Shown: positions 2,900-35,707 of the stretch, one piece after another
Position numbering within the stretch: the stretch's first letter is position 1
Layout: every line of letters begins with the position of its first letter
NCBI GenBank assembly: GCA_012517375.1
Contig: JAAYVC010000024.1
Coordinates: forward strand, 1-35,707
Reading direction: 5' to 3'
Length of the DNA stretch: 35,707 bases
Origin: a bacterium
Lineage (GTDB): Bacteria; Hydrothermota; Tepidihabitantia; B3-TA06
The notes under the pieces: model-generated
What the model was told of the DNA's origin: nothing
What the model saw: the letters and a program-made list of their open reading frames with translations, nothing else
Database searches by the model: none
Made by a program: the position numbers and the translations under genes

Positions 2900-3550
2900 C
2901 TATAAAAGCCCTTTTGTGACTGCGTAACGGGTCAGTTCTGCAGTGGAATGAACACCCAGCTTCTCCATGATATGAGCGCGATGGGTCTGCACCGTTTTAA
3001 AGCTTATTTTTAGAATCTCTGAAATCTGTTTGCTGGTATAGCCTTCAGCGATGAGTTTGAGGATTTGGCGTTCACGCGATGTAAGTTTTGCAGGTCCTTG
3101 ACGCGAACCTCCTCTGGACTGACCTTCCTGGAGCTGTCTTCTCAGTTTTTCAGAAACGGATGGCGAAAGGAATGTTGACCCTCTATAAACGCTGTGTACG
3201 GCTGACACTAAGTCAGAAACCACAACATCCTTAAGAATATATCCTGAAACACCAACTTTGAAGGAATCCAGAATATACTCTTCGTCATCATACATCGACA
3301 GTATTAGTATTTTAGTTTCAGGTATTTTCTCTTTGATCTTACGTGCGGCTTCCACTCCTGAAAGCAAAGGCAGCGCCATGTCAAGAACAACCACGTCCGG
3401 TTCTTCCTGAATGCAGACATCAACGCCTTTCAACCCGTCTTCTGCTTCAGCAACTATTTCTATATCGGACTCCTGTTCCAAAAGAACCCGGATGCCCTTT
3501 CTCACAACTGTGTGATCGTCTACGAGAACAACTCTTATTTTATCGGTCAT
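2900..3550 (-). CDS. NarL/FixJ-family response regulator
   Basis: A DNA-binding response regulator of 216 residues. The receiver domain (about 5-120) has the acidic pair Asp11-Asp12, phospho-acceptor Asp57 (VVVLDMALP) and the conserved Lys in GYILKD. The C-terminal LuxR-type helix-turn-helix (about 150-212) reads TSRERQILKLIAEGYTSKQI followed by the recognition helix KTVQTHRAHIMEKL. Its ATG overlaps the TAA of the giant kinase gene by one base (TAATG), so the pair is translated together and the kinase is almost certainly its phospho-donor. NarL-type regulators normally pair with HisKA_3 kinases, as here. The regulon cannot be told from this window. Confidence 0.95.
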   Translation of the reverse strand: MTDKIRVVLVDDHTVVRKGIRVLLEQESDIEIVAEAEDGLKGVDVCIQEEPDVVVLDMALPLLSGVEAARKIKEKIPETKILILSMYDDEEYILDSFKVGVSGYILKDVVVSDLVSAVHSVYRGSTFLSPSVSEKLRRQLQEGQSRGGSRQGPAKLTSRERQILKLIAEGYTSKQISEILKISFKTVQTHRAHIMEKLGVHSTAELTRYAVTKGLL

Positions 3551-6500
3551 TACTCCTCCGGTTTCATTCTATTCATAATGGGCCGGATTGCAACCTCGAC
3601 TCTAAGATGCGTACCTTCGCCCGGCGAAGATTCAAGTTCCATTCGTCCCCTTATTAAAGCGACCCTTTCCTGCATTGAATGCAGTCCCAATCCTCTGTGT
3701 TCAGAAAGCGTTTTATCCAGGTCGAACCCCTTTCCGTCATCCGATATGGTAAATCTAAGTAGGGGTGCATCGTAATCAAATACGATTCTAATCTCTTCCG
3801 GCTCTGCATGTTTTAATGCATTATTCACAGCTTCCTGGATAATCCTGTAAATCATGATTTCGGTCTCCTGTTCGGTGCGCGGGAACTCATCTTCAGTCTC
3901 TACTTCAACGCTGACCCCTGTTGCAACAGCTACGGATCGTGCAAGCGCTCTTACTGCAGCAAGAAGCCCCAAATTATCAAGGGCTGGTGGTCTTAAATCG
4001 TAAGAAAGATCTCGAATGAATTTCTGAGTCTCCTTAACCATATCCTTTGCCTCTTTTATTCTGCCCTGGGAGTTTTCGTTTTGATTCATCTCGGGCGTGG
4101 AAAGAATCAAAGCTATGCCTGTGAGCTGCTGTGCGATTTCATCGTGAAGAACGCGAGCAATGCGTCTGCGTTCTTCCTCTTCGGCCTTTACGAGTCTGAT
4201 ATGCAAATCCGTAATCTGTCTTTCACGCTCTCTAAGATTCTCGTATGACAAGGCGAGTTCTCTCGATTTACTCTCTGTGGCGAGTGCCGACGAGAAGCTT
4301 TGCGATGCGGTCCAGAGCAACCTTATGTCCTCAACATCCCATTCTCGTCGCTTTTTTGCCTCATCGAATCCTATGGCGCCCCAGAATCTGCCTTCGACGA
4401 ATATCGGAAGTACTAAATAGGCAACAATACCCTCTTTAGAAAAAGTCTTTTTTTCTTGTTCGGGCATCTCATCCACTAATCCATGCATATCCTCACCCGT
4501 AGAAAGTCCGGCCAGCCACCTTTCGAATCCTTGCTCATAGTAAAGTCTGTTCATGTTTCCATTATCGAGTTGAGGCACATCTTCAGAAACCCATCTGTGC
4601 GTTCTGTTCATGAAATACTTGTCGTCTTCATCTTTATCATGGGAAAAAATATACACTCTGCTCACTTCTGTGACCCTGCCCAACCGTTCAAGAAACTCAT
4701 GTATCGAGTTGTCAGTAATTCCTTCCGCAAGAAAAAGCGAAGACACTTCGTAAAGGGCTTTCTCGTATTCCATCCTGAGTCGTAAAGCACGTTCCGATTC
4801 CTTACGCTCCGATATGTCTCTTGCTATGCCTTGTACCGCAACAATCTCGCCTTTGTCGTTTTTTATCCAGTTCCAACTCAGGGAAAACCAGTGACGGATG
4901 CCATTCTTGTCATAGATTTCAGAGTCAATTTCCTGCACAGGATGCGATTCCCGCAGTGATTTTGCGAATACGGCTCTGAGCATGATCATCTCGTCCTGAG
5001 GTATGGCCTGTATGACTGACTGAGGGTTCTTAATTATTTCGTCAGGCTCGTATCCAAGACGCCTGGAGGCCGGGGACACGTAAAGAATTTGGCCTTTAAT
5101 TGTAAGGAGGAAAATTATATCCATAGAAGTTTCAACCAGCGTTCGATAACGTTCCTCTGACTCAGCCAACGCATTTTCTGCAAAACGTCTTTCCTGCTCT
5201 TCAAAGAATCTATCCATGGCAGCGCCGACAAGACGAGCGAAGGTTTGAAATTCCTCAAGTTCAAATTCGGACCACGTCCTTGGCTCTTTTGAATCGCATA
5301 CCCCTATAAAGCCGTAGAAATTTCCCACTATTTTTATCGGCGCAAACATACCTGACTTGGCATTTGATTCCCCTAAGAACCTCCCTTCTTCAGTTGTTGT
5401 ATCAGGTGACGTTTTAACAACTAGGCTGCCGGAAAGAAAATTCTTATAGATTTTCGGGAAATTTGAATAATCGTAACTTGATCCGAATATTGATTTTTTT
5501 TCTTCCTTCTTCCACTCGTGAGTTATCCGAAAATCATTCTTGCCTTCAAGATTTGTAGCAAGGTAGACCCTATGCGCTTCAAATACTGAGCCAAGAATCT
5601 TCAATGAATCCATAATAAAGACGTCAAGATCATCGATAAGTATCGCCTTATTAAGTATCTCTGTAATTGTAGTCTGATATATCAATCTTACCCTTAATTG
5701 CTCCTCGGCTTTTTTAATATCCGAAATATCTGTGAGAACGCCGAGTGTGGCATGAAATCTGCCGTCGGAATAGTATACCGGCGCCGCATTAACCAAAACA
5801 TCCCTTAGTGAACCATCTCTGTTTATAAGTGATAATTCGTATCGGGAGGTTTCACCTTTTTCCCTTCGCAATGTCTCATTAAGAATCAATTCCTTTTGAT
5901 CTAAAGGAACATAGTCGGTTATTAACCTACCGACAAGCTCCTCTGCATTATAACCTAAAAGCTCAGCCATCTTGGGATTCACAAAAAGGATCTTCTCATC
6001 CGGGGCCACAAGACCTATCCCCTCCTGTGCAGTATGAATCAGAGTTCTGTACAGCTCTTCGCGTTCACGAAGAGCTTCTTCGGCTTCTTTGCGCTCTGTG
6101 ATGTCGCGAACATATTCTATGAGCCCTTTCATCTTTCCGGTAGATAAGTCCATCAAGGGAAAGGTATAAAGTTCGACCCATCCAACGCTTTCACCTTCAG
6201 GTCCTCTTTTCGGTACAACTTCGTATCCGGCTTCTCTCGTCTCCTTCGTTCGCTTTCCCGGACAAAACTCACATACTTCGTGCCTGTTATGATAGACTTC
6301 ATAGCACTTTTTCCCGATGAAAGGCGCTGAATGAGCATACCACTTTTCCATAGTCGGGTTTACTCGGACAACATTAAGCTCATTATCCAGGATGCTTAAC
6401 CCATCCTGTATACTTGCAAATATGCTCGCAAGGAATCTCTCTCCTTCACGAATGGCCTCCTCGGCTTGCTTTCTTTCCTCTATATCTCTTAAGAAAACAA

Positions 6501-9500
6501 GTATCGCACTGCCTTTTCCCCAAGGAATCATACTGCCGCTCAGTTCGAGCGGGAACCTTGTGCCGTCAATTCTTAGACCCACTCCTTCTCCAAAGAACCC
6601 GCCTCTTGTCTTGACCTGATTTATAAGTTCGGGCATTATCCCGCTCATTTCTGGTGAAACTAAATCAACAAAGACTTTATCAAGAAACGCCTCCTCCGAA
6701 TACCCGTACAGGTCAGTTGCTTTCTGATTAACCGCCAGTATTTTACCATCGAATCCTTCGACTATTATGGCATCATTAGCCTGTTGAAAGAGGTTCCTGT
6801 AGCGTTCTTCCGATTCCCGAAGAGCATCTTCCGTAATCTTACGGTCCGTTATATCGCGAGATATTACAAGCGCTCTGTCGACAAGACCCTCCTCGTTGGT
6901 TAACGGCCTTCCCTTTGATTCAACCCAGATGTATGAGCCGTCTTTCTTTTTAGTTCTGAATTCCAAGGATGAGCTTTTCGCATCCCGCCACGATTCTTTA
7001 AAAGCCTTAATCACCATCTGACGGTCATCAGGATGCATTATCTCTACTGCAGTCATCCTTGATAATTCTGCTGCAGAGTAGCCGAGGATCCTCTCGACCG
7101 CAGGGTTGAAATATAAATAATTCAAGGAAGAATCATGAAGAGTTATAAGATCGTTTGCGCTCTCAGTAATCAATCTGTACCTCTCTTCCGACTCAGCCAG
7201 AGCCTCCTCTGCCCTTTTGCGTTCAGTAATATCGCGAACTATCGCCTGAATGATGATTTCACCCCTTAACTCCAGGCGATTCAACGATACCTCAGCATCG
7301 AAAGGAGAACCGTCCAGCCTTATGTGCTTCCAGTAAAATCGCTGAGGCTCCCCCGCTAAAGCTGCCTTAATCCTTTTAATAGCGGCATCTTTTGATGAAG
7401 AACCGTCTGGCTGGAAAGGTGGCGAAAAACGGTAAGGAGTTTGGCCGACTATCTGGCTTCTTTCGCACTTGAAAAGCTCAAGAGTAAGCGCGTTACAGTC
7501 CACAAAAACGTCTTCAACCATTGTGAAAATGGCGTCATCGGCATTCTCGAATAACGCTCTGTATCTTGTTTCACTCTCCTTAAGGTCGGAAAGATTTCGC
7601 GACCTCAGATAAGCTATGGAAGCCTGCCGCGCAAAGATGCGCATCTTTTCCTGATCCTCTTGATTGAAAACTCTCTTAATCGCAACGAGATTAATTACAC
7701 CCAGTAACCGGTCACCATAGAGAAGAGGCTCTGCAATAACCGACTGCATTTCATCCTCTTCTCCTTCCGTTCCCTGCGTCGATAATGTTTTTCCCTTACT
7801 GTTATAGTTTAGATACAAACCTCGTTTATCAGCGGCTGCTTGTCCGGTAACACCCTGGCCCAGCGAAAACTTATAGTCAAGCAACTTCTCCTTTATTTGT
7901 CTTGCATTGGTATAGTACGGTACAAGAAGCTCCTGCTTACCATCCCAAAGAAAGATCGTTGACGAGTGTCCGTCAAGGAGGTGGACAGCTTGATCTGCGA
8001 TAACGGCCAAAACCTCGGTCAGATCTGTCTTATCAGCCAAGGCAAGTGTTGTTTCATAAAGTCCCCTGTAGGTTCGTTCCGATTCTCGAAGGGCTTCCTC
8101 TGAAAGCTTTCGTTGAAGCGCCGTTGAGAACATCTCGGCAATCGTTTCAAAAAAGACTATATCCTCTTTAGGAATAATTTGCGGTTCGCGATTCGCAAGA
8201 TGCATGACTCCCAGCAACTGACGGGATGCACCCAAAAGAGGCCATGAGATTATTGAATTTATCTCGCTTTCTTCAAATCTTTTCTCGAATTTTTCGAATA
8301 TTTCGTGTTGTCTTATATCCGGTGCAAAGATTGATTTTTTGGTTCTTGCAACGTATGAAGCGACAGACTGCGGATCATTTATGTTCTGAGAAGGTTTCGG
8401 GAGGCTCATCTTCACAGGTCCGTCCTTCCAGAAACCTGTCATGGCAGTAAGTTCAAGCGTACCTTTTTGAAAGTCATAAAGCTGTATCGAACCGGTATCA
8501 AAACTCAAAACATCAGCAAAACCCTTAAGAACTCTATCGCATAGATCGCCGATATCTTTTGAACTGACCGCGGCTTCAGCAATAACTGAATACGCCTGTC
8601 GTTCTTTTCTTATGGTCTCTTCTATACGCTTTCGCCGGGTAATGTCATGAGCAACAAGTTGAATGGCAGGTTTACCCTGATAAGTAAAGGCTATTGATAT
8701 TGAATCTACAATAACCTCCTTCCCGTCAATTCGTATGAGCTTTTCTTCAAGGAAGGGGTTTTTGGAATTATCCGCAACTGACTTCATTCTTTCAGTTACG
8801 ATTTTCTTGAAATCAGGATGAACAAAATCTATAGCTTCTCGTCCAATCAATTGCTCTTCGCTCTGCGCTCCCAGGATTCTGACGGCTGCTTCGTTAACAA
8901 AAACCATCTTCCCGTTCTGTAAAACTACTATTGCCTCCGGTGAAAGGGATACAAGTTTGCGATATCTTTCTTCTGATTCTAAAAGTGCCTCTTCGGCTTT
9001 CTTTCTTTCAGTGACATCTTCAGTCAGGATTACTACACGTTCGACTTCTCCTGATGCGTTTGGAATTGCGTAAAAGTATTGCGAGACATATATAGGCTCC
9101 TCTTTTCTCGTTCTTTTAACTTCAACCTGCGGTATGTGAAAACTTCCCCCGTGCTCGTATACATCCTTGATTTCCTTCTTCCATTGCTCAAGATATGAAT
9201 CGCTTTCGTCGAATTCGAGACTATCCCTCTCGCGGCTCATATCATCGATAACAGCATCCTCAGACATACCCCATATCTTCTTCCAGGCTTCGTTGGCGCC
9301 AAGCAGTCTTCCCGTCCTGTCACGAACTGACACGCCCAAAGGCGCGTTTTCGATAACGGTCCTGTTAAATTCCTCACTCCTCTGCAGAGCCTCTTCGGTT
9401 CTTTTTCTTTCTGTTATGTCGCGCGCTATTGAAAAAACTATTTGTTCGCCGGCAAGCTCGAAGATATGGGAGCTTAACTCGACAGGTATCTTACGGCCAT

Positions 9501-12500
9501 CTTTGGCAAGGTGTTTTGTCTCGAATACAATATGCTTCTCTTCGAGTATCCGCTTACCTACTTCAAGAATTTTTTTTCTGTTTTCATGTTCTTCAATCTG
9601 TATAGGAGATAATTCCAAAAGTTCTTCCTTAGAATATCCCAATCTTGAGCATGCAACCTCGTTAACATCCTCAAATTTACCTGGTTCCCCATTAGGAGAT
9701 ACGGTATGAATGAAAAGTGCATCGTTAGCGCTCTCGAACAGCATTCTATAGCGCTCCTCGGAATCCTTAAGAGCTCTCTCAATCTTTTTCCTTATCCTGA
9801 TGTCTCTAGCAAACACAAGATCGGCAGGGCGGCCTTTGTAGTTTATTATTCCTGCATTCACTTCTACGTCGATAAGCTCGCCGTCCTTGGTCAATAGCTG
9901 GGTTTCGTATACAGACTGCACCTCTTCCCCTTTCATCCTTCGATTGTATTTGTCCCTTATCTTGTCCCTCACTTCAGGATTAAAAAGAAATGTAAAATCC
10001 TTGTCGAGCACATCTTCAGTCTGGTAACCTAGAGTATTCTCAAGAGCCTTATTCGCAAAAACCAGATGGTTATCCTGCAGAATGGCTATCCCATCGAGCG
10101 CTTGCTCGACGAAGGAACGATATTTTTCCTCGGAATCAACGAGAAGGGAAAACAAAGTGCTGTTGAGCGCGGCGTCGGCAACCTGGTTAGCGAACAGCGA
10201 AAACAATTCCAAGTCCCTCTCCCCAAATGGATTATCCTCCAAACGAACAAGGGTCATGACGCCCCAAAGCTCGCTTTGAGCTATGAGAGGAGCCACCAAA
10301 AGGCATTTCGCAGAGTCTTTAACACCGGGTATTCGAATTGCATCATCCGAAAGGTGAATATGATTTGCTATCATGGGTCGCCTTTCCATTGCAACCTTTC
10401 CAGTTATACCCTTGCCGAGAGGGAACCGGTAGGCAAGCCTCTCTTTCTTGTCTTTTTCAATCGTTGTCGTTATAGGTATTAGCTCGTCAACATCAGAGTC
10501 GAGTCTATAGACTGTGCAACCGTCTGCATCTATGAGTTCGGTTGCCCTTTCTGCTATTATCTTAGCTACTTCGTCCTCGTTAAGGCTTGCCGACACATCA
10601 GTACTTATGTCCAAAAGAGTCCTCAACTCCTGGCTGCGGCGTTTTATCTCGGCCTCGTTCGCTTTTCTTTCGGTAATATCCCAGAATACAGCCTGTGATG
10701 CGGGTTTGCCTTCGTACATGGTCGGCATGGAGGTTACTTCTACGTCAATGATCTTTCCGTCGAGACGAAGGAACTTTTCCTCAAACAAATCGGACGTTTC
10801 GCCTTCTTCTATGGATTTTTTGATTCTCGAAGTAGCGGTTTCCCGATAGTCAGGATGAACAAAATCAAGAGCATTCAACCCCATTACATCTTCTATACTA
10901 TTCGCACCCATGAGTTTCAGACACGAATCGTTCGCATATACAACCTTTCCTTCGCAATGTACGGCAATGGCGACAGGGTTAAGTTCAACCAACTTGCGGT
11001 ACCTTTCTTCGGATTCTCTTAATGCATACTCTGAGCGCTTCCTGTCTGTGATATCTCGGACAATACCGCGGTACCCCTTGAATTTCTTATCCCGGTCGAA
11101 TATAGGTACGCCTGAGGTCTCAAGAACAACCTTGCTGCCGTTTTTATGCAGATTAATATTTTCAAGAAGATAAAAGGATTCCCGAGCTGCAACAATCGAG
11201 GCAATTTTCTTGGTTATTCTGTCAGCCTCATCTTCAGGCATAAAATCGAAGGGCGTCCTGCCAAACAGCTCCTCAGGCTTATACCCCAGTATATCAAAAG
11301 CCCTTGGGTTTGAATACACATATTTGTTGTCCTCGTCTATTTCCCATACCCAATCGCTTGTCGTCTCGACAAGGCCCCTGAATTTCTCTTCTGATTCCCT
11401 GAGTGCTTCCTCCGAACGCTTGCGCTCTGTTATATCTATTACGTATCCGAGGTAGTGGGTTATATTATTCTTTTGATCTCTTATTATTGTTGTATAGTCA
11501 TCAACCCAAATTCTTCGTCCATCTTTACAGGTCAGTCTATACGGTATGTGGTGAAACTCCTCTACGCCGCTTTCACTGTAAGTTTTGACTTCATTCGCCA
11601 CCCTTTCAAGCTCCTCTTCAGGAATAATCTCAGCGTAGGATACTTTTCCTGTAATCCATTCCTCCACCGAGTATCCCATAACATCCTTAACGTTAGCCGA
11701 GACGTATTCAACAGGCCAACCCTGCTTGTTCTGCCATTTGAAGACTACTACCGGACCCGAAATGAACATCTTTCTTTCCTGAATCAACTCAAGGTTCAAT
11801 TCTTTCAAGGCTTCTTCAGCCTTTTTCCGTTCCGTAATATCCCGTACAACAGTTACAATGCTTTCTACCTTGCCGCTTTCATCCTTGACAGGTATCTTTC
11901 TTGTTTCCGTGAAAATCTCCCTCCCTGAAATAATATTGGATTCCTGGGTTATCAAAGGCTTGCGAGTCTGCCACACTTCTTTGTACTCTTTTTGAACCTT
12001 TGGAGAAAGAAACGGGAAAACATCGAACAGCGATCTGCCGATAACATCGTCAAGAATTATGCCAAGCTCGACGGACCAGAGTTTGAAAGCAAGATTATGC
12101 ATGATTATCCGCATATCCCTGTTAACGACGTGAATGAGTTCACCCATCGAATTGATTGTCGAGCGGTACAGCTCCTCTGAAGCCTTTAAGGAATCCTCGG
12201 CTTTTTTCCTGTCTGTAATATCGCGGACAACCGTGAGAATTCTTTCTACCGAACCTTCTCGATTCTTAACAGGTATTTTACGCACCTCGATTATAACCTT
12301 TTTTCCGGCAACCTCGATGACTTCCTGAGTTTGAATTGAATCCCCGTACTTGAACACCTTATCATAGTCCTTGCGCGCACTATCGGAAATGAAAGGGAGG
12401 ACATCAAAAAGAGGCTCGCTCGTAATATTCGCAAGCTTGAGTCCAAAAACCTTCATCCACTTAGTCAAGATATCGTTATACATTACAATACGCTTTTTAT

Positions 12501-13305
12501 TATCTATCACATAAACAAGGTCTTCCATCGAGTCTATTGTCGAGTGGTAGAGTTCCTCCGATGAAGAAAGCTCCTTCTGCACCCTCATGTAATCGGTGAT
12601 ATCAACACAGTGACCTAATCTGGCTTTTTCACCCTTATATGATATATCTCTTGTATAAACGTCAAGGCAAGCCTCTTCTTTATCTTTACGTATAATCCTG
12701 AAAGAATAGTGTGAAGCGGTATCCTTACCCTTTGTTCTTTTATCTACACGTTCACGATCTTCCGGGACTATCAAATCGACCGTCCTCATTTTCAGCAGTT
12801 CTTCTGCAGAATAACCGGTCATCCGAACCATCTGCTCGTTAACGTAGAGGAAACGGTCATCACGGTAAATGTAAACGCCTACAAGAGCGGACTCGCTAAG
12901 TGAACGGTACATCTCCTCAGATTCCTCGTGAATGACGCTTGCCATATTTCCGAATGATGTTTCTGCCCCAACCATAACCGCTCCCTTTATTGCACCCTTA
13001 GATGTCTTTAATGGATAAAAGGAGGTTCGGATTGACGTGTGAGAGCCGTCCTTTGTCTTTGATATTACTACCTTTTGTTCAAGCACCTCGCCTGCACGTA
13101 TTCCCTGCAGAGTTTCGGCAGGAAACTCGATAAAGTCGCCAACTTCTGAATTTAAGGCTTCCTTCCTGCCGGTGTTAAAGAAAGCCTCAGCCCCCGGGTT
13201 CCACTCAGTAATAAAGCCTTTATCATCAAATGCAATACAAACTACTGGAAGCCGTCTCGAAAGAGACAAAAATAAAGCCCCTACATCTTTGTATTCTTTT
13301 TCCAA
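3550..13305 (-). CDS. Giant soluble PAS/GAF histidine kinase, 3251 residues
   Basis: A sensor histidine kinase of exceptional size with no visible membrane segment or signal peptide, so probably cytoplasmic. I count about 17 PAS domains, most ending in RDITERK-like linkers, and 5 GAF domains. In order: PAS1-7 (to residue about 880), GAF1 (890-1050), PAS8-11 (1060-1555), GAF2 and GAF3 (1565-1905), PAS12-16 (1910-2530), GAF4 (2540-2705), PAS17 (2715-2835), GAF5 (2840-3010). A short coiled coil leads to a HisKA_3 domain with phospho-acceptor His3054 ([16 protein letters not shown]). The HATPase_c domain follows, with N-box NNALKHA near 3161, then DDGKGFD and [11 protein letters not shown]15 carries Cys2334, Cys2345 and Cys2348. 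The start is TTG with GGAG 9 bases upstream. It is coupled to the downstream NarL-type regulator. Ligands cannot be predicted. Confidence 0.95.
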
Positions 13306-22608: not shown

Positions 22609-23098
22609 CAAGAGTCGCGCAAAAGAGCGGATTACTGCAAGCAGCATCTTGAATGCGTTCTTGTTGTCGTGTTTGATTGTCTCAGGCTGCGTTCCTCCTT
22701 CTACAACGGTCTTGCGGACTCCAACAAGAGACGCACTCGTTGAAGAGATTCACAAATTCAAAGGAACCCCTTACCACTATGGCGGCTCCACGCCGAAAGG
22801 AACGGACTGTTCAGGCTTTACCATGACTGTTTTCTCAAGATTCGGTGTCAAGCTTCCCCATTCAGCATCAGGGCAATTCAATATGGGCAAGTCGGTCGAC
22901 CGCAGCAACTTAAAAATCGGCGATTTACTTTTCTTCCGCACCCAGGGCTCCAAAGTTGTCAACCATGTAGGCATATACCTTTGGGAGGGCAAGATGGTCC
23001 ACGCATCTTCGACGGACGGCGTCATCGTAGTCCCTTTTACCGGAAACATATATTACGAACGTCGCTACGCCGGGGCAAGAAGGATAATAGACTTTTGA
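22595..23098 (+). CDS. NlpC/P60 peptidoglycan hydrolase lipoprotein
   Basis: A lipoprotein of 167 residues with lipobox IVSGC (Cys32), followed by a single NlpC/P60 cysteine-peptidase domain (about 45-165). The catalytic triad is visible: Cys72 in GTDCSGF, His124 in NHVGIY and a further polar residue, His136, in VHASS. These enzymes cut D-glutamyl-diaminopimelate bonds in cell-wall peptides, as in E. coli Spr/MepS. The start is TTG at 22595, inside the end of the preceding gene, without a strong ribosome-binding site; coupling to upstream translation is likely. The stop overlaps the signal peptidase start as TTGA. Confidence 0.9.
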   Translation: MKIADKSRAKERITASSILNAFLLSCLIVSGCVPPSTTVLRTPTRDALVEEIHKFKGTPYHYGGSTPKGTDCSGFTMTVFSRFGVKLPHSASGQFNMGKSVDRSNLKIGDLLFFRTQGSKVVNHVGIYLWEGKMVHASSTDGVIVVPFTGNIYYERRYAGARRIIDF

Positions 23099-24309
23099 GC
23101 AGGAAAGAGACAAAGAAGACGAAAAAAGAAGAGGGACAAAAGACTCAAGGAAAGCGTTCCTTCTGGCGAAAAGCGTGGGATTTTGTTAAAGACTGGTCGA
23201 CGATAATCCTTTTAGTGCTCGCCATAAGGGCGTTTGGGGTGGAGTCGATGATAGTACCTACCGGCTCGATGGAAAGAACCATCATGCCGGGCGACGCCTT
23301 GCTCGTCAACAAATTCCGCTATGGATTCAAGATGCCCTTCACCAACAAAGACATAATCCCCGGCCGCAGACCCAATAAGGGCGATGTAATCGTCTTCCGC
23401 TACCCCCATCACGGTCGCTACCCCCAGCCTGACGAAAGATTTGTTCGTTTCTTTCCAAAATGGTTCCCGCTCCTGCCCATACACTGGGATAAGCGGGATA
23501 AGAAATTCAACTTCTACGCGCCTGAGAACTGGGTTAAGCGTTGTGTCGGATTGCCCGGCGACACGGTGGAGATAATAAATAAGGAGCTATACGTCAACGG
23601 AAGGACGTTCGCGTGGAACTACAAAGCCGCTTTCGAGGATCAGTACGCCTTTCCGAGCCTTGTTCCAAGGGAGGAGTTCCAGAAACGCTGGATGGACCTC
23701 TTGTGTTTTCAATTTCACGACAGCCTGTACTACGCGGACTCCAGCGTATACAAGTCGAATCCTTCCTTCGGCAGAATATCATTCGATGAACTGAGATTTT
23801 ATTACGACAGCCTTTTCGTTCAAGCGTATTACGACAGAAGGATAGGTGAGGAGCATCTTATGCACTATATCGTGAATTTCTATATGAACCCCAAGCATCT
23901 GAAAGACATGGAGAATCAAAGTCTGGATATAGACCTCCCCATCCCACCTGATGGAACGGCTGATCTTGCCGGATTTTACAACAAATACTACTCTCAGACG
24001 AACTACAAGGTGCGGAACATGGAAGTGGACAGTTTTCTTTATGCTTCCTACATAATGCACTACTATATGAGAGATAACTTCGGTCCCATTGTCGTTCCGG
24101 ATGGAGTCGTGATGGGTATAGGCGATAACAGGGATTATTCGCACGATTGCCGCTACTGGGGATTCATTCCGCTCGAGATGCTCAAGGGTTCGCCTCTGGT
24201 CTGCTACTACTCGCTTGGCGACGAGTACGATGCCGACTCGAACAAGATGAGTATACCTGCAAGGATTCTCGGAACCCATTGGGAAAGGATAGGAAGACCC
24301 GTTAACTAG
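23095..24309 (+). CDS. lepB: Signal peptidase I with a large insertion
   Basis: Cleaves signal peptides from secreted proteins at the outer face of the inner membrane. The 404-residue product has a basic, charged N-terminus, one membrane anchor (about 40-56), the catalytic Ser58 (PTGSME), the general base Lys148 (VKRCVGLPGDT) and the C-terminal box GDNRDYSHDCRYWG. Compared with the paralogue immediately downstream, it carries roughly 120 extra residues between ELYVNGR and MRDNFGPIVVP. The extra part is rich in Tyr, Phe and Asp, and its function is unknown. The TTG at 23095 overlaps the NlpC/P60 stop (TTGA). The open frame further upstream is a shadow of that gene. Confidence 0.92.
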   Translation: MSRKETKKTKKEEGQKTQGKRSFWRKAWDFVKDWSTIILLVLAIRAFGVESMIVPTGSMERTIMPGDALLVNKFRYGFKMPFTNKDIIPGRRPNKGDVIVFRYPHHGRYPQPDERFVRFFPKWFPLLPIHWDKRDKKFNFYAPENWVKRCVGLPGDTVEIINKELYVNGRTFAWNYKAAFEDQYAFPSLVPREEFQKRWMDLLCFQFHDSLYYADSSVYKSNPSFGRISFDELRFYYDSLFVQAYYDRRIGEEHLMHYIVNFYMNPKHLKDMENQSLDIDLPIPPDGTADLAGFYNKYYSQTNYKVRNMEVDSFLYASYIMHYYMRDNFGPIVVPDGVVMGIGDNRDYSHDCRYWGFIPLEMLKGSPLVCYYSLGDEYDADSNKMSIPARILGTHWERIGRPVN

Positions 24310-24400: not shown

Positions 24401-25261
24401 ATGTCTAAGAATAAGAAGAAAAGGAACGTAGAACAGCCACAGTCAAAACCGGCTGAAGCAAAGAAACCCAGGAAGCCGTTCGGCCGCAGGCTCTGGGAGT
24501 TCGTGCGTTCGTGGGGGCTCGTGATTTTGATAGTGCTTGCCATTAGGGCATTCGTAATCGAGGCGTTCACGGTTCCCACAGGTTCAATGGAGGATACAAT
24601 CCTTCCGGGAGATTTTCTTCTTGTCAACAAGTTCGTATACGGATTCAAGGCTCCCTTCACTAATGCGGATATAATCCCGGGCAGAATGCCTAAACGGGGC
24701 GAGATAATCGTCTTCCGCTATCCCAGGGACACAAGATGGCCCGAACCCGAGGAGCGCTACGCGCGCTTCTTCCCGAAGTGGTTCCCGCTCCTGCCCATAT
24801 TCTGGGACAAATGGGATAAGAAGTTCCACTGGTACTCGCCGCACAACTATGTCAAACGCTGCATAGGCCTGCCCGGCGACACGATAGAGGTAATAAACAA
24901 GAGGCTCTACGTTAACGGAGAGCCTCTTGACGATTCCCGCTACGTTACCCATAAGGATCCTTCAATATTTCCGCCGGTTGTCCCTGCCGATGAATTCAAC
25001 AAGCGCTGGCGGAACCTTGAGTTCGAACGCCGGTACGAGGTCCGCGACAACTTCGGCCCGATAATAGTACCCCAGGGCTACGTGTTCGGTATGGGCGACA
25101 ACCGCGACCAGTCCGACGACTGCCGCTACTGGGGACCTATACCGATAAAGTTTCTCAAGGGTTCGCCTGTCGTCATTTACTTTTCACTTGGCGAAGGGAA
25201 CAACCTCTTGGAACGTATTTTGCGTATCAACTGGAACCGCATAGGTCGGGTTGTAAGATAG
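24401..25261 (+). CDS. lepB: Signal peptidase I, compact paralogue
   Basis: A second signal peptidase I of 286 residues. It has a basic N-terminus, one membrane anchor (about 40-56), nucleophile Ser62 (PTGSMEDTILPGD), general base Lys152 (VKRCIGLPGDT) and the GDNRDQSDDCRYWG box. Long stretches are almost identical to the preceding gene (for example ARFFPKWFPLLPI against VRFFPKWFPLLPI), so the pair arose by tandem duplication followed by insertion or loss. Unlike its partner it has its own promoter and should be translated from a leaderless mRNA, so the two can be expressed separately. Confidence 0.95.
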   Translation: MSKNKKKRNVEQPQSKPAEAKKPRKPFGRRLWEFVRSWGLVILIVLAIRAFVIEAFTVPTGSMEDTILPGDFLLVNKFVYGFKAPFTNADIIPGRMPKRGEIIVFRYPRDTRWPEPEERYARFFPKWFPLLPIFWDKWDKKFHWYSPHNYVKRCIGLPGDTIEVINKRLYVNGEPLDDSRYVTHKDPSIFPPVVPADEFNKRWRNLEFERRYEVRDNFGPIIVPQGYVFGMGDNRDQSDDCRYWGPIPIKFLKGSPVVIYFSLGEGNNLLERILRINWNRIGRVVR

Positions 25262-26476: not shown

Positions 26477-26504
26477 ACTATAGTAATGAACAAGATTCAG
26501 TCAA
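26477..26504 (-). promoter_or_regulatory. Promoter of the small anchored protein gene
   Basis: On the minus strand: TTGACT (26504-26499), 16-bp spacer, TATAGT (26482-26477). A leader of about 20 nt carries the AAAGGAGG. Confidence 0.75.
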
Positions 26505-26507
26505 TCA

Positions 26508-26535
26508 TTGCGAAGACTTTCCAGGCAAGTATAAT
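26508..26535 (+). promoter_or_regulatory. Promoter of the permuted phosphoglycerate mutase (leaderless)
   Basis: TTGCGA (26508-26513), 16-bp spacer, TATAAT (26530-26535). The ATG at 26544 lies 8 nt after the -10 box. The divergent promoter has its -35 only 3 bp away. Confidence 0.6.
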
Positions 26536-26543
26536 GCATTGAT

Positions 26544-28112
26544 ATGGACGAACCGATACTTTCAACACCACTGGCTAGGGCGATACTAGCTTCTTACAAA
26601 AAAGGTGAAGAGGATGAACTCTTAGAACCGCTTGTGCTAGTGGATAAAGCCGGCAACCAGATCGGAAGAATCAAGGAGGGCGATTCGGTAATCTTTTACG
26701 ATATCAGGGGTGAAAGAGAGATAGAGTTGACAGAGGCTTTGACCGACCCCGGTTTCAGCCATTTCCCCTCTATGGATCTTGGGCTTTCATTTGTTACCAT
26801 GATCCGTTATCGAAAGGGTCTCGGGGTTCGTGAAGCCTTCCCGCCCCTGGAAAAACTCAAAAACACCCTTTGCGAGGTGCTTTCGAACCGGAGCAAGCGG
26901 ATTAGAAAGATAACAGAGGCTGAAAAAGCCATCCATCTTTCTTACTTTCTCAACGGCAAGAGCGAAGAATCCTTCGAAAATGAGGAAAGGGTCATCCTGC
27001 CGACAAGGAAAGATGTAGCTACATTTGACCAGGCCCCGCAGATGTCTGCGGAGCTTGTTACCAAAGCCGCTTGCGAAGCGCTTGCCGATAAGGCCGTCGA
27101 TGCCGTGATTGTTAACTTATGCAACGTCGATGTTGTCGGTCATTTCGAGAATGAAGGGTCGGTCTTGAAAGCCATAGAAACCGTTGACGAGAGCCTAGGT
27201 AAGATGATATCGTGCGCCAGACAGAACGACGCGACTTCCGTGATAACGGCTGACCATGGAACGGTTGAGCGCTGGCTCTACCCGGAGGGTACTGTGGATA
27301 CAGGTCACACGAAAAGCCCCGTGCCTTTTATTGTTGATGCGGATGGTTCTTTTACAGTAACCGATGGCGAACTCAGCGACGTGGCGCCTACCGTTCTCCA
27401 CCTTTTAGGCATAGAAAAACCCTGCGAGATGACCGGAAAGACCTTGATTGACGGAAGCGCTCCTCGAGCAAAAAGGATATTATTGGTAATACTCGACGGC
27501 TGGGGACACAACGACGGCGATTACGGCAATATGATAGCCAAGGCAAGAACGCCAAGTTTTGACTCGCTGTGGAGCTCCAGGCCTCACTGCGTTTTAAAGG
27601 CTGCGGGCACCGCTGTAGGATTGCCTGAACGAAGCGTCGGCAACTCCGAAGTAGGACATCTCCATATAGGAGCAGGCAGACACGTTCCATCTGATAGAGT
27701 GAGAATAGACTCTGCAATAGCCGACGGGGCTTTCATGCAAAACGAGGCGTTTCTCTGGGCGATAGAGGAAGCCAAAAGCCGCAGATCTTCACTGCACCTC
27801 CTGGGTATTGTGAGCTTCTATTCGTCTCACGGCTCCATTACGCACCTCGAGGCGCTCATGAGACTCTGTAAGGAAAGGGATGTGGATAACTTCTTCATCC
27901 ACGCTATGCTCGGCAGACGCGGTGAACGGCCTATGGCTGGCGCGCGCTACATAGGAATGATTGAGGACGAATGTCTTAAGATAGGCCGAGGCAAAGTCGC
28001 AGGAGTTATTGGCCGTTACTGGTCTCTTGACAGGGAAGAAAACTGGCGGCGGATTGAGCGAACTTACAGATGGCTTCTGGAAGGTCACGGAACCCGGATA
28101 ATAGATTCGTAA
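26544..28112 (+). CDS. gpmI: Circularly permuted cofactor-independent phosphoglycerate mutase
   Basis: Expected to interconvert 3- and 2-phosphoglycerate in glycolysis with two metal ions. The 522-residue length is normal, but the order of the halves is swapped. Residues 1-305 match the canonical C-terminal part: substrate arginines Arg55 and Arg58, Lys128, metal ligands Asp196 and His200 (NVDVVGH), Asp237-His238 (TADHG) and His255 (TGHT). After a short linker (about 306-312), residues 313-522 match the canonical N-terminal part: Asp318 (ILDGWG), phospho-acceptor Ser368 (GNSEVGH), His429, and Arg491 and Arg497 (GRYWSLDRE). Spacings within each half equal those recalled for the Bacillus enzyme. 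The usual DGRD reads GRRG (457-460), so one substrate-contacting aspartate is replaced. The single uninterrupted frame and its own promoter argue against an artefact. No ordinary gpmI is visible in this window. Confidence 0.9.
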   Translation: MDEPILSTPLARAILASYKKGEEDELLEPLVLVDKAGNQIGRIKEGDSVIFYDIRGEREIELTEALTDPGFSHFPSMDLGLSFVTMIRYRKGLGVREAFPPLEKLKNTLCEVLSNRSKRIRKITEAEKAIHLSYFLNGKSEESFENEERVILPTRKDVATFDQAPQMSAELVTKAACEALADKAVDAVIVNLCNVDVVGHFENEGSVLKAIETVDESLGKMISCARQNDATSVITADHGTVERWLYPEGTVDTGHTKSPVPFIVDADGSFTVTDGELSDVAPTVLHLLGIEKPCEMTGKTLIDGSAPRAKRILLVILDGWGHNDGDYGNMIAKARTPSFDSLWSSRPHCVLKAAGTAVGLPERSVGNSEVGHLHIGAGRHVPSDRVRIDSAIADGAFMQNEAFLWAIEEAKSRRSSLHLLGIVSFYSSHGSITHLEALMRLCKERDVDNFFIHAMLGRRGERPMAGARYIGMIEDECLKIGRGKVAGVIGRYWSLDREENWRRIERTYRWLLEGHGTRIIDS

Positions 28113-32954: not shown

Positions 32955-33968
32955 TTACAGGTCCGCTCTTATCTCGCATTGAGGCAGCTTCTTCTGGAGC
33001 TTTTCTACTCCCTCGGAGGTGATTTCTCCACCGCTGCCGAGATAAAGTATTTTAAGACCCTTAAGCTTCTCAAGATGCTTGAGGCCCGAATCCGTTATCC
33101 GCGTGCCGTAGAGATCGAGTTCCTTGAGGTTTGTCATCTTGCCAATGAACTTAAGGTGCGCGTCGTCGATTCCGGCGTAGGGAAGATAGAGCCTTTCGAG
33201 CTGTTTAGTCTCGGCAAGAAGCTCCAGTACCTCTGGCAGGACTTCGGCCTGGATTATGGAGAGCTCCTTGAGTCCTGTGAGCGTGGGAATGAGTTCGAGC
33301 CAGGGTGTGTCGACAACGTTGTACATGCGGCTCAGGCTTTGGAGATTATTCATCCCCTTCAGATGAAGCATCTCCTCGTCGGAGACTGCGTTCAAGGAGA
33401 GTTTTTTGAGATTCGGCAGTTGTCCTATGTAGCGCATCGCGCCCTCTGGAAGAATCGTGAAGCTCGCATCAAGCTCAATCAGGCTGGTGAGAGCGGCAAG
33501 GACATCTATCCCGTGCTCGGCTAGAGGACCCTCGCCCAGGTTAAGATAACGAAGACCTTTGAGTGTCTGAAGAGAGGAGAGATCGTTTTCCTCATCGGTA
33601 TGTACTACGGAAAGCGCCGCGAGATTGGGAAACCGGCCGAGATCGGGAAGGTACTGGACGGTTGCAAGGATTGCAACCACATCGCCAGGTTTCTTGACTT
33701 TCTTCGGCTCCTGGTCGAATGTGTTGAAACCCCGGAGCTTGCCCGAAACCCAGAGACCTTGTTCATCGACGGTGTAGTCTATTGAATCCTCACCTGACCA
33801 CGGATAGTAGTAATTGTTGTACGGTTCGCCTTCAAGCATAAGAAACTCCCCGCCGGGCGTCCAGTCCGATACTTCCTGAGTTTGAGCGACCTCTCCGTCG
33901 CGTACTATTACGAGCTCGCGCGCTCCGAGAAGGGATGCAATGAATAAAAGGATAAATGTAGTTTTCAA
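32955..33968 (-). CDS. Exported leucine-rich-repeat protein
   Basis: A 337-residue protein with an N-terminal signal sequence (about 1-16, MKTTFILLFIASLLGA). A non-repeat domain (about 17-90) follows, then about ten leucine-rich repeats of 22-26 residues (about 90-330), with units such as LTGLKELSI, MTNLKELDLYGTRITDSGL and LKGLKILYLG. The repeats are of the kind common in Planctomycetes and other environmental bacteria and generally mediate protein binding outside the cytoplasm. Partner unknown. The TTG at 33968 is chosen because AAGGAGG lies 5 nt upstream; the open frame extends much further but crosses the promoters of this gene and fhs. Confidence 0.85.
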   Translation of the reverse strand: MKTTFILLFIASLLGARELVIVRDGEVAQTQEVSDWTPGGEFLMLEGEPYNNYYYPWSGEDSIDYTVDEQGLWVSGKLRGFNTFDQEPKKVKKPGDVVAILATVQYLPDLGRFPNLAALSVVHTDEENDLSSLQTLKGLRYLNLGEGPLAEHGIDVLAALTSLIELDASFTILPEGAMRYIGQLPNLKKLSLNAVSDEEMLHLKGMNNLQSLSRMYNVVDTPWLELIPTLTGLKELSIIQAEVLPEVLELLAETKQLERLYLPYAGIDDAHLKFIGKMTNLKELDLYGTRITDSGLKHLEKLKGLKILYLGSGGEITSEGVEKLQKKLPQCEIRADL

Positions 33969-33987
33969 GAAAGCCTCCTTTTGAAAA

Positions 33988-34015
33988 AGAATACATGCGA
34001 GGCAGTTACTGTCAA
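33988..34015 (-). promoter_or_regulatory. Promoter of the LRR gene
   Basis: On the minus strand: TTGACA (34015-34010), 16-bp spacer, TATTCT (33993-33988). A leader of about 13 nt carries AAGGAGG. Confidence 0.7.
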
Positions 34016-34020
34016 CGTCT

Positions 34021-34048
34021 TTGACAAGCCTCTTTTTCGTACTATCAT
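34021..34048 (+). promoter_or_regulatory. Promoter of fhs
   Basis: TTGACA (34021-34026), 16-bp spacer, TATCAT (34043-34048). It is divergent from the LRR promoter, with 5 bp between the -35 boxes. Confidence 0.75.
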
Positions 34049-34079
34049 AAATAGAAATTGTAAAACCAGAGGAGCAATC

Positions 34080-35707
34080 ATGTCTTCGGATATAGATATA
34101 GCGAATAATGTCAAACTGAGCCCTATAACCGAGATAGCGGCCAAATTGGGACTTAGCGAGGGTGAGTTGGAGCTTTACGGACGCTACATGGCCAAGGTCT
34201 CCGCGGATACATGCCACAGGGAGGTAGGATGCGAGCAGACAGGCAAGCTGATTCTTGTTTCCGCCATAACGCCTACGCCTGCTGGAGAAGGGAAGACCAC
34301 GGTCTGTATCGGGCTTGCCCAGGGCCTTGCCCATATAGGCAAGAAAGCGGCTCTCGCCTTAAGGGAGCCGAGCCTTGGCCCTGTCATGGGAGTAAAGGGC
34401 GGCGCAACCGGAGGGGGGTACTCGCAGGTGCTGCCGATGGAGGATATTAATCTCCACTTTACTGGAGACATACACGCTGTAACGGCTGCGCACAACCTCC
34501 TTACCGCCATGATTGACAACCACATCCACCAGGGCGACGAACTGGCGATTGACGGCAGAACGGTTTTATGGCGCCACGTGATGGACGTCAACGACAGATC
34601 ATTGAGACAGATGGTCATCGGTCTAGGCGGAAGAACGATGGGGTTCCCGCGCGAATCCGGTTTCGACATCACCGCTTCATCCGAAGTCATGGCGATACTG
34701 TGTCTGACGAATAGCTTTTCGGACCTCAAGCGCCGGCTCGACAGCATTCTTGTCGGATTCACGTTCGACGGAGAGCCCGTGACCGCAAAGGGGCTTCACG
34801 CCTCAGGCGCAATGGCGGCCCTTCTCAAACACGCATTCAAGCCCAACCTTGTTCAGACCATTGAGGGCGTTCCTGCGTTCATTCACGGCGGGCCGTTCGC
34901 CAACATCGCCCAGGGCGCAAACTCCGTCATGGCGACGAAGCTGGCATTAAGGCTTGCAGACTATGTAGTTACCGAGGCGGGGTTCGGCTTTGACCTGGGC
35001 GCTGAGAAGTTCTTCGATATCGTGTCCCGGACAGGCAATCTCGATCCCGGCGTAGTCGTGCTCGTCGCGACGGTCAGGGCGTTAAAGATGCACGGAGGCG
35101 CGGACAGGAAGGAGCTGGACAAACCAAATGCGGACGCTGTCCGCAAGGGTCTGCCCAATCTCGCCAAGCACCTCGAGAACATAGCGAAGTTTGGGATGCC
35201 GGAGGTGGTGGCTATCAACATATTCTCCGGCGACACCGAGGAGGAGCTGAAGGTGATTGAGGAGTTCTGCGCGGAAAAAGGCTGCGAGTATGCGCGCGCA
35301 GAGGTCTGGGCAAAGGGAGGAGAGGGCGGTGCGGAGCTTGCACGCAAGGTCGTTAAGGTTCTGGATACGGAGCCCGCTCACTACAAGCCGCTATACGAAC
35401 TGGACTGGCCCGTCGAGAAAAAAATCGAGACCGTCGCGCGGGAGATATACGGCGCAGAAGCTGTGGATTATACGCCCGACGCTGAATCAGACCTCCGAAA
35501 GATAACGAAGCTAGGATACCAGAATCTGCCCGTATGCATCGCCAAGACGCAGAATTCGCTTTCGGACAACCCCCGCCTCCTGGGCCGGCCCAAGGACTTT
35601 CTCGTGACCGTCCGCGACATAGTCATTGCGGCGGGCGCCGGCTTCCTGATTCCGATTACGGGCGAGATTTTAAGGATGCCCGGCCTGCCCAAACACCCTG
35701 CAGCCGA
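34080..35707 (+). CDS. fhs: Formate-tetrahydrofolate ligase (3' end cut by the window)
   Basis: Joins formate to tetrahydrofolate with ATP to give 10-formyl-THF, the entry of formate into one-carbon metabolism and, in acetogens, the methyl branch of the Wood-Ljungdahl pathway. About 542 codons are present; the family is usually near 555-560 residues, so only some 15 residues are missing. The ATP loop TPTPAGEGKTT (64-74), REPSLGPVMGVKGGATGGG (folate/ATP site), FTGDIHAVTAAHN and EAGFGFDLGAEKF are all diagnostic. The ATG at 34080 follows GAGGAG (34069-34074) with 5 nt spacing. It has its own promoter, divergent from the LRR gene. Whether the host is an acetogen cannot be judged from this gene alone. 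Confidence 0.95.
   Translation, partial: MSSDIDIANNVKLSPITEIAAKLGLSEGELELYGRYMAKVSADTCHREVGCEQTGKLILVSAITPTPAGEGKTTVCIGLAQGLAHIGKKAALALREPSLGPVMGVKGGATGGGYSQVLPMEDINLHFTGDIHAVTAAHNLLTAMIDNHIHQGDELAIDGRTVLWRHVMDVNDRSLRQMVIGLGGRTMGFPRESGFDITASSEVMAILCLTNSFSDLKRRLDSILVGFTFDGEPVTAKGLHASGAMAALLKHAFKPNLVQTIEGVPAFIHGGPFANIAQGANSVMATKLALRLADYVVTEAGFGFDLGAEKFFDIVSRTGNLDPGVVVLVATVRALKMHGGADRKELDKPNADAVRKGLPNLAKHLENIAKFGMPEVVAINIFSGDTEEELKVIEEFCAEKGCEYARAEVWAKGGEGGAELARKVVKVLDTEPAHYKPLYELDWPVEKKIETVAREIYGAEAVDYTPDAESDLRKITKLGYQNLPVCIAKTQNSLSDNPRLLGRPKDFLVTVRDIVIAAGAGFLIPITGEILRMPGLPKHPAA

Follow-up and report, generated by a model that had tools for sequence, protein, structure and literature searches.

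As judged from its sequence, the product of the open reading frame (ORF) at positions 26544-28112 of the forward strand belongs to the alkaline-phosphatase superfamily, in the branch of cofactor-independent phosphoglycerate mutase (iPGM, GpmI type), and is a natural circular permutation of such a protein. The ORF lies on contig C24 of a MAG, a contig of 35.7 kb whose full length of 35,707 nucleotides is here called the window, and the source genome as a whole measures 2.54 Mb at 96.9% completeness. The gene and its parts are laid out as follows, canonical residues being those of the Bacillus enzyme.

26544..28112, + strand: whole gene of the permuted iPGM-family protein, 522 amino acids, ATG start
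26571..27449, + strand: first part, residues 10-302, equivalent to canonical 217-509 (the rest of the transferase domain and, after it, most of the phosphatase domain)
27450..27470, + strand: linker of 7 residues (303-309), bridging the former C and N termini
27471..28097, + strand: second part, residues 310-518, equivalent to canonical 4-212 (the opening stretch of the phosphatase domain, followed by the first part of the transferase domain)

When the ORF product is compared with the PDB by phmmer, each iPGM structure is matched twice and in swapped order (E 3e-111 overall), such that residues 10-302 align with residues 217-509 of the Bacillus stearothermophilus enzyme (1ejj; 192 bits) and residues 310-518 with its residues 4-212 (183 bits). 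The TIGR01307 model is split likewise on the genome, with 26574-27449 corresponding to model positions 214-504 and 27471-28106 to positions 1-212, and a profile built from 22 relatives again aligns to the ORF product in swapped order. The two Pfam domains are also each found in two stretches, Metalloenzyme at residues 99-292 (profile 62-252) and iPGM_N at residues 388-517 (profile 1-130). A natural permutation had been proposed in an earlier note on this DNA, and it is upheld by the structural, TIGR01307 and family-profile alignments together with relatives in the same order; the alignments likewise rule out that both halves stand in canonical order. The note's estimate of new termini at about residues 207-216, within the transferase domain, is refined by alignment to a cut at canonical residues 212-217, and the few residues that it expected between the old termini prove to be the seven of the linker, the length and sequence of which vary among relatives.

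In canonical GpmI the start of the phosphatase domain is followed by the transferase domain and then by the rest of the phosphatase domain, an order replaced here by 217-509 and then 4-212. In the canonical Bacillus enzyme the transferase domain is inserted into the phosphatase domain, which we take to comprise residues 1-76 and 311-511. A cut at 212/217, inside the transferase domain, would thus leave the phosphatase domain continuous and split the transferase domain between the two ends of the chain. Ala334 of the Caenorhabditis elegans enzyme (PMC5382265) agrees with the placing of hinge 2 near Bacillus residue 310. In regard to overall structure, the permuted chain would fold into the same two-domain, two-metal enzyme, and the AF2 model has a mean pLDDT of 88.2 and a pTM of 0.86. 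The best 22 PDB matches to this model in Foldseek are all iPGMs, aligned over 225-326 columns, with a fit to 1ejj of 2.4 A. Each alignment covers about half of the chain, since a sequential aligner can follow only one half of a permuted protein at a time.

The source window being a 35.7 kb contig of a MAG, the swapped order could in principle have arisen by assembly or binning, if two fragments of a canonical gene had been joined the wrong way round. Such an artefact is, however, almost inconceivable, and the misassembly that the earlier note had named as a possible refutation is rejected, given that the same order is kept in some 80 other genomes, in relatives at 51-70% identity. One of these copies lies at position 2,054,745 of its contig, the permuted family has conserved motifs of its own, and a profile search of the source genome found neither a canonical iPGM that could have broken nor a broken copy of one elsewhere.

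These carriers fall into two phyla, to which the census was confined. In the phylum of the source genome, labelled WOR-3 here, 147 genomes were searched; of the seven other genomes in the source family, six have the gene at full length and 66-70% identity, and the remaining WOR-3 genomes contain neither the permuted gene nor a canonical iPGM. A 'Deltaproteobacteria' MAG (G147) and a Thermodesulfobacteriota bacterium MAG carry it at 54-55% identity. Six of the eight genomes in the class of the former have the gene (one copy being cut at a contig end), and ten further carriers appeared among 395 genomes drawn from the wider Desulfobacterota/Thermodesulfobacteriota phylum. Among the 155 genomes in the class of G353, a single full-length match in permuted order is found in 60; a further genome (G475) has the order with an insert, and five contain pieces of the gene. 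The total, including the source, is at least 81 carriers (7 WOR-3, 6 of the G147 class, 66 of the G353 class, and G155 and G229), such that the 80 others comprise 6 of WOR-3 and 74 of the Desulfobacterota/Thermodesulfobacteriota kind.

A tree was calculated from 52 permuted rows, rearranged to canonical order, from 47 genomes (five genomes being sampled twice). All permuted proteins fall into a single clade (SH-aLRT 100), the stem of which measures 1.13 changes per column, a length that weakens the placing of the clade among the canonical iPGMs. Its neighbours are the canonical iPGMs of the short type (95), and the long type lies outside; the root is drawn at the midpoint. WOR-3 and the G147 class each form one group within the tree. 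The simplest reading is a single permutation followed by spread. The permutation would probably have arisen once, through a tandem duplication, a fusion and the loss of both outer halves, and a transfer of the gene between WOR-3 and bacteria of the Desulfobacterota type is probable as well.

The active site of the permuted protein is made up of residues from both parts of the chain, with D318 and the nucleophile S368 in the second part. Its principal features are these.

27129..27308, + strand: metal ligands D196, H200, D237, H238 and H255, equivalent to 403, 407, 444, 445 and 462, invariant in 52 permuted rows
27645..27647, + strand: codon of the nucleophilic S368 (S62), invariant
27813..27833, + strand: loop SFYSSHG, residues 424-430, where the canonical sequence is SDGGVHS, with H429 (H123) kept
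27909..27926, + strand: loop LGRRGE, residues 456-461, where canonical iPGM has LDGRD(T/V), with R459 (R153) kept and D154 replaced by G460

In an alignment of 52 permuted rows with 33 canonical ones (28 of the short type and 5 of the long), the six metal ligands (D12, D403, H407, D444, H445 and H462) and S62 are invariant across all rows. The residue equivalences given in the earlier note, D196/H200/D237/H255 to 403/407/444/462 and D318/S368/H429/R491/R497 to 12/62/123/185/191, are correct by alignment, as is its statement that the metal ligands and phospho-serine are retained, which extends to 52 of 52 permuted rows. Nine residues contact 2-/3-phosphoglycerate in the Bacillus enzyme, namely S62, H123, R153, D154, R185, R191, R261, R264 and K336 (PMC3886921). 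Eight of the nine are invariant in the permuted rows (R191 is not alignable in the long canonical type), the exception being D154, a change absent from the earlier note, as are those in the flanking loops: here 52 of 52 permuted rows have Gly, in contrast to Asp in 33 of 33 canonical rows. Beside it, all permuted rows have Gly for D151, Arg for G152 and Glu at position 155, and in the H123 loop all have Phe for D119, Ser for V122 and Gly for S124. In other words, two loops have been re-fixed across the family, from SDGGVHS to SF(F/Y)SSHG and from LDGRD to LGRRG. A comparison of 22 permuted with 14 canonical sequences gives 20 fixed differences, which lie mostly within active-site motifs or next to them.

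The suggestion of an active enzyme, made in the earlier note, thus stands in part. The catalytic metal ligands and serine are in place, and the phosphate of a substrate would be passed to the metal-activated serine and from there to an acceptor hydroxyl, as in a mutase, or to water, as in a phosphatase. A plain, active phosphoglycerate mutase is, however, poorly supported, given the loss of D154, the 20 fixed differences and the presence of another, conventional mutase in nearly all carriers checked. Overall, it appears rather probable that the protein is a permuted and functionally diverged phosphotransferase of the iPGM family which acts on a different phosphorylated substrate, and it is probably not the glycolytic mutase. 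Since a substrate contact is lost, the acidic D119, D151 and D154 are gone and an Arg is gained, the physiological substrate would most likely be another, probably more anionic, compound than 2- or 3-phosphoglycerate. The loss of D154 and the remodelled loops would also suit a relative that lacks catalysis or has a regulatory role and serves to bind a phosphorylated ligand. This is an improbable reading, because selection for binding alone would not need the nucleophile and every metal ligand, all of which are invariant across two phyla.

The main rival to a changed substrate is that the protein is a genuine 2-/3-phosphoglycerate mutase, in which the permutation was neutral, the pocket was rebuilt around Gly460, Arg458 and Glu461, and the enzyme provides a second mutase in addition to ApgM, GpmA or GpmI. 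Eight of nine substrate contacts, compatible with binding of 2-/3-phosphoglycerate, and all the catalytic metals are kept, the protein scores 458 bits against a TIGR01307 cut-off of 330.65, and bacteria often have two forms of phosphoglycerate mutase (PMC2964296). A retained mutase role nonetheless seems unlikely, D154 being invariably lost and the neighbouring loops re-fixed in all permuted rows, and three different conventional mutases stand beside the permuted gene in most of the carriers checked.

The identity of these other mutases requires some care, as matches to the apgM model TIGR00306 fall into two score classes. The two typed examples at 490-550 bits are of the proposed homoserine kinase type, both being over the TIGR02535 cut-off (in NCBIfam the same two proteins are also PRK04200, 'cofactor-independent phosphoglycerate mutase'), and the three typed examples at 350-365 bits are of the ApgM type PRK04135. 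TIGR00306 alone therefore overcounts phosphoglycerate mutases (L083 and L014 are also over the TIGR02535 cut-off). Raw co-occurrence with ApgM was not counted as evidence, since high scorers were typed as TIGR02535, and ApgM presence was dropped as a mark specific to carriers because 19 of 25 non-carriers also exceed the TIGR00306 cut-off. By score class, ApgM is found in the source genome (G000:C114), in the other WOR-3 carriers (split over two contigs in G007) and in G147, G148, G153, G306, G353, G475 and G512. G155, G219, G229 and G375 have an iPGM in canonical order, its SDGNVHS and LDGRDV intact, and GpmA is found in the carriers G152, G417 and G437. In G149 and G154, MAGs for which completeness is not stated, no other phosphoglycerate mutase was seen, an observation that favours a genuine mutase and goes against a changed substrate. 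In the G353 class, about 54 genomes have the canonical iPGM, 66 the permuted form and about 22 both, against 23 expected by chance; the two forms do not exclude one another and co-occur at about chance level. From this co-occurrence and the other mutases present, a dedicated glycolytic role in most carriers is unlikely, even if redundancy alone is compatible with one.

The gene neighbourhood provides a lead in one class. In the G353 class, the next gene on the same strand encodes a protein with the ADP-ribose-binding macro domain, typed as an O-acetyl-ADP-ribose deacetylase, in 29 of the 33 loci examined (L070-L078 and L101-L129), usually 8-60 bp from the permuted gene and at most 265 bp away. 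On the divergent side lies a conserved block, which we read from sequence as protein-isoaspartate methyltransferase, LysM/M23-type, CarD-like, PIN/TRAM-like, IspDF and GltX genes. The macro-domain adjacency is a lead to the function of the permuted protein, even though its absence from other carrier groups counts against a changed substrate: no macro-domain gene lies beside the permuted gene in WOR-3, the G147 class, or G155 and G229. The WOR-3 and G147-class loci also have no shared metabolic neighbours that hint at a substrate. In the window, the permuted gene stands alone, with a divergent ORF upstream and an opposite-strand ORF next downstream, and is preceded by one candidate promoter.

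26508..26535, + strand: sigma-70-like promoter site, TTGCGA, 16 nt, TATAAT, 8 nt before the ATG (consensus match only)

From a site ending so close to the ATG, the transcript could be leaderless. Two divergent sigma-70-like sites in fact occupy the interval (26477-26535) between the permuted gene and the opposite-strand ORF.

Elsewhere in the window, a 3251-amino-acid ORF (3550-13305, - strand) contains many PAS domains (up to 14 stretches with one PAS model) and GAF domains and ends as a histidine kinase (HisKA_3, HATPase_c), that is, an unusually long sensor kinase. Two adjacent ORFs (22981-24309 and 24401-25261, + strand) both match signal peptidase S26 (PF10502). A leucine-rich-repeat ORF (32955-34334, - strand) overlaps the start of an opposite-strand formate-tetrahydrofolate ligase ORF (33981-35705, + strand); one of the two called starts is probably too early.

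Natural circular permutations of enzymes of central metabolism are, to our knowledge, rare. The earlier note knew of no permuted iPGM, and in the open-access literature, the only literature searchable, no relevant description of a permuted phosphoglycerate mutase or of a permuted member of the alkaline-phosphatase superfamily was found; permutation is unmentioned in a survey of bacterial mutases (PMC2964296). The family is thus apparently undescribed in that literature. The chances appear evenly balanced for the fuller proposal of an undescribed family, namely a permuted iPGM of single origin, with an invariantly remodelled substrate site, a substrate other than 2-/3-phosphoglycerate and a macro-domain neighbour in one Desulfobacterota-type class. 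The permutation reverses the arrangement of host and inserted domain in a textbook two-domain enzyme, with the catalytic metals kept. The family constitutes a natural test of the link between permutation and change of substrate, and it singles out the D154 region and the H123 loop as the positions of interest. Moreover, as the TIGR01307 cut-off is passed, automatic annotation would name a glycolytic mutase, hiding both the permutation and the altered active site.

Among known families, the closest is GpmI (TIGR01307; PF01676 and PF06415; PDB 1ejj and 1o98), with which both halves align end to end at 35-40% identity in the structure matches; the permuted protein shares with it every metal ligand, the nucleophilic serine and eight of the nine substrate contacts. 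Both Pfam domains are present, and the 458 bits with TIGR01307 are the total of two stretches. In contrast to GpmI, the permuted protein has swapped halves, Gly for D154, new loops and a clade of its own. Since two tested features of GpmI, the order of the halves and D154, are lacking, the family is, on these comparisons, a permuted sister clade of GpmI and not GpmI proper. ApgM (TIGR00306, PRK04135) belongs to the same superfamily and reaction class and matches weakly over the metal-site region (34.5 bits against a cut-off of 320, such that membership is rejected), a true ApgM-type gene being present elsewhere in the source genome, at G000:C114. Membership of DeoB (the phosphopentomutase; TIGR01696, 18.9 bits against 341.2) or PhpG is likewise rejected, phosphopentomutase models as a whole giving 18.9-30.6 bits and the transferase PhpG 19.7 bits, against cut-offs of 254-545. 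Both DeoB and PhpG nevertheless share the metal core of the alkaline-phosphatase superfamily and are examples of iPGM relatives with other substrates.
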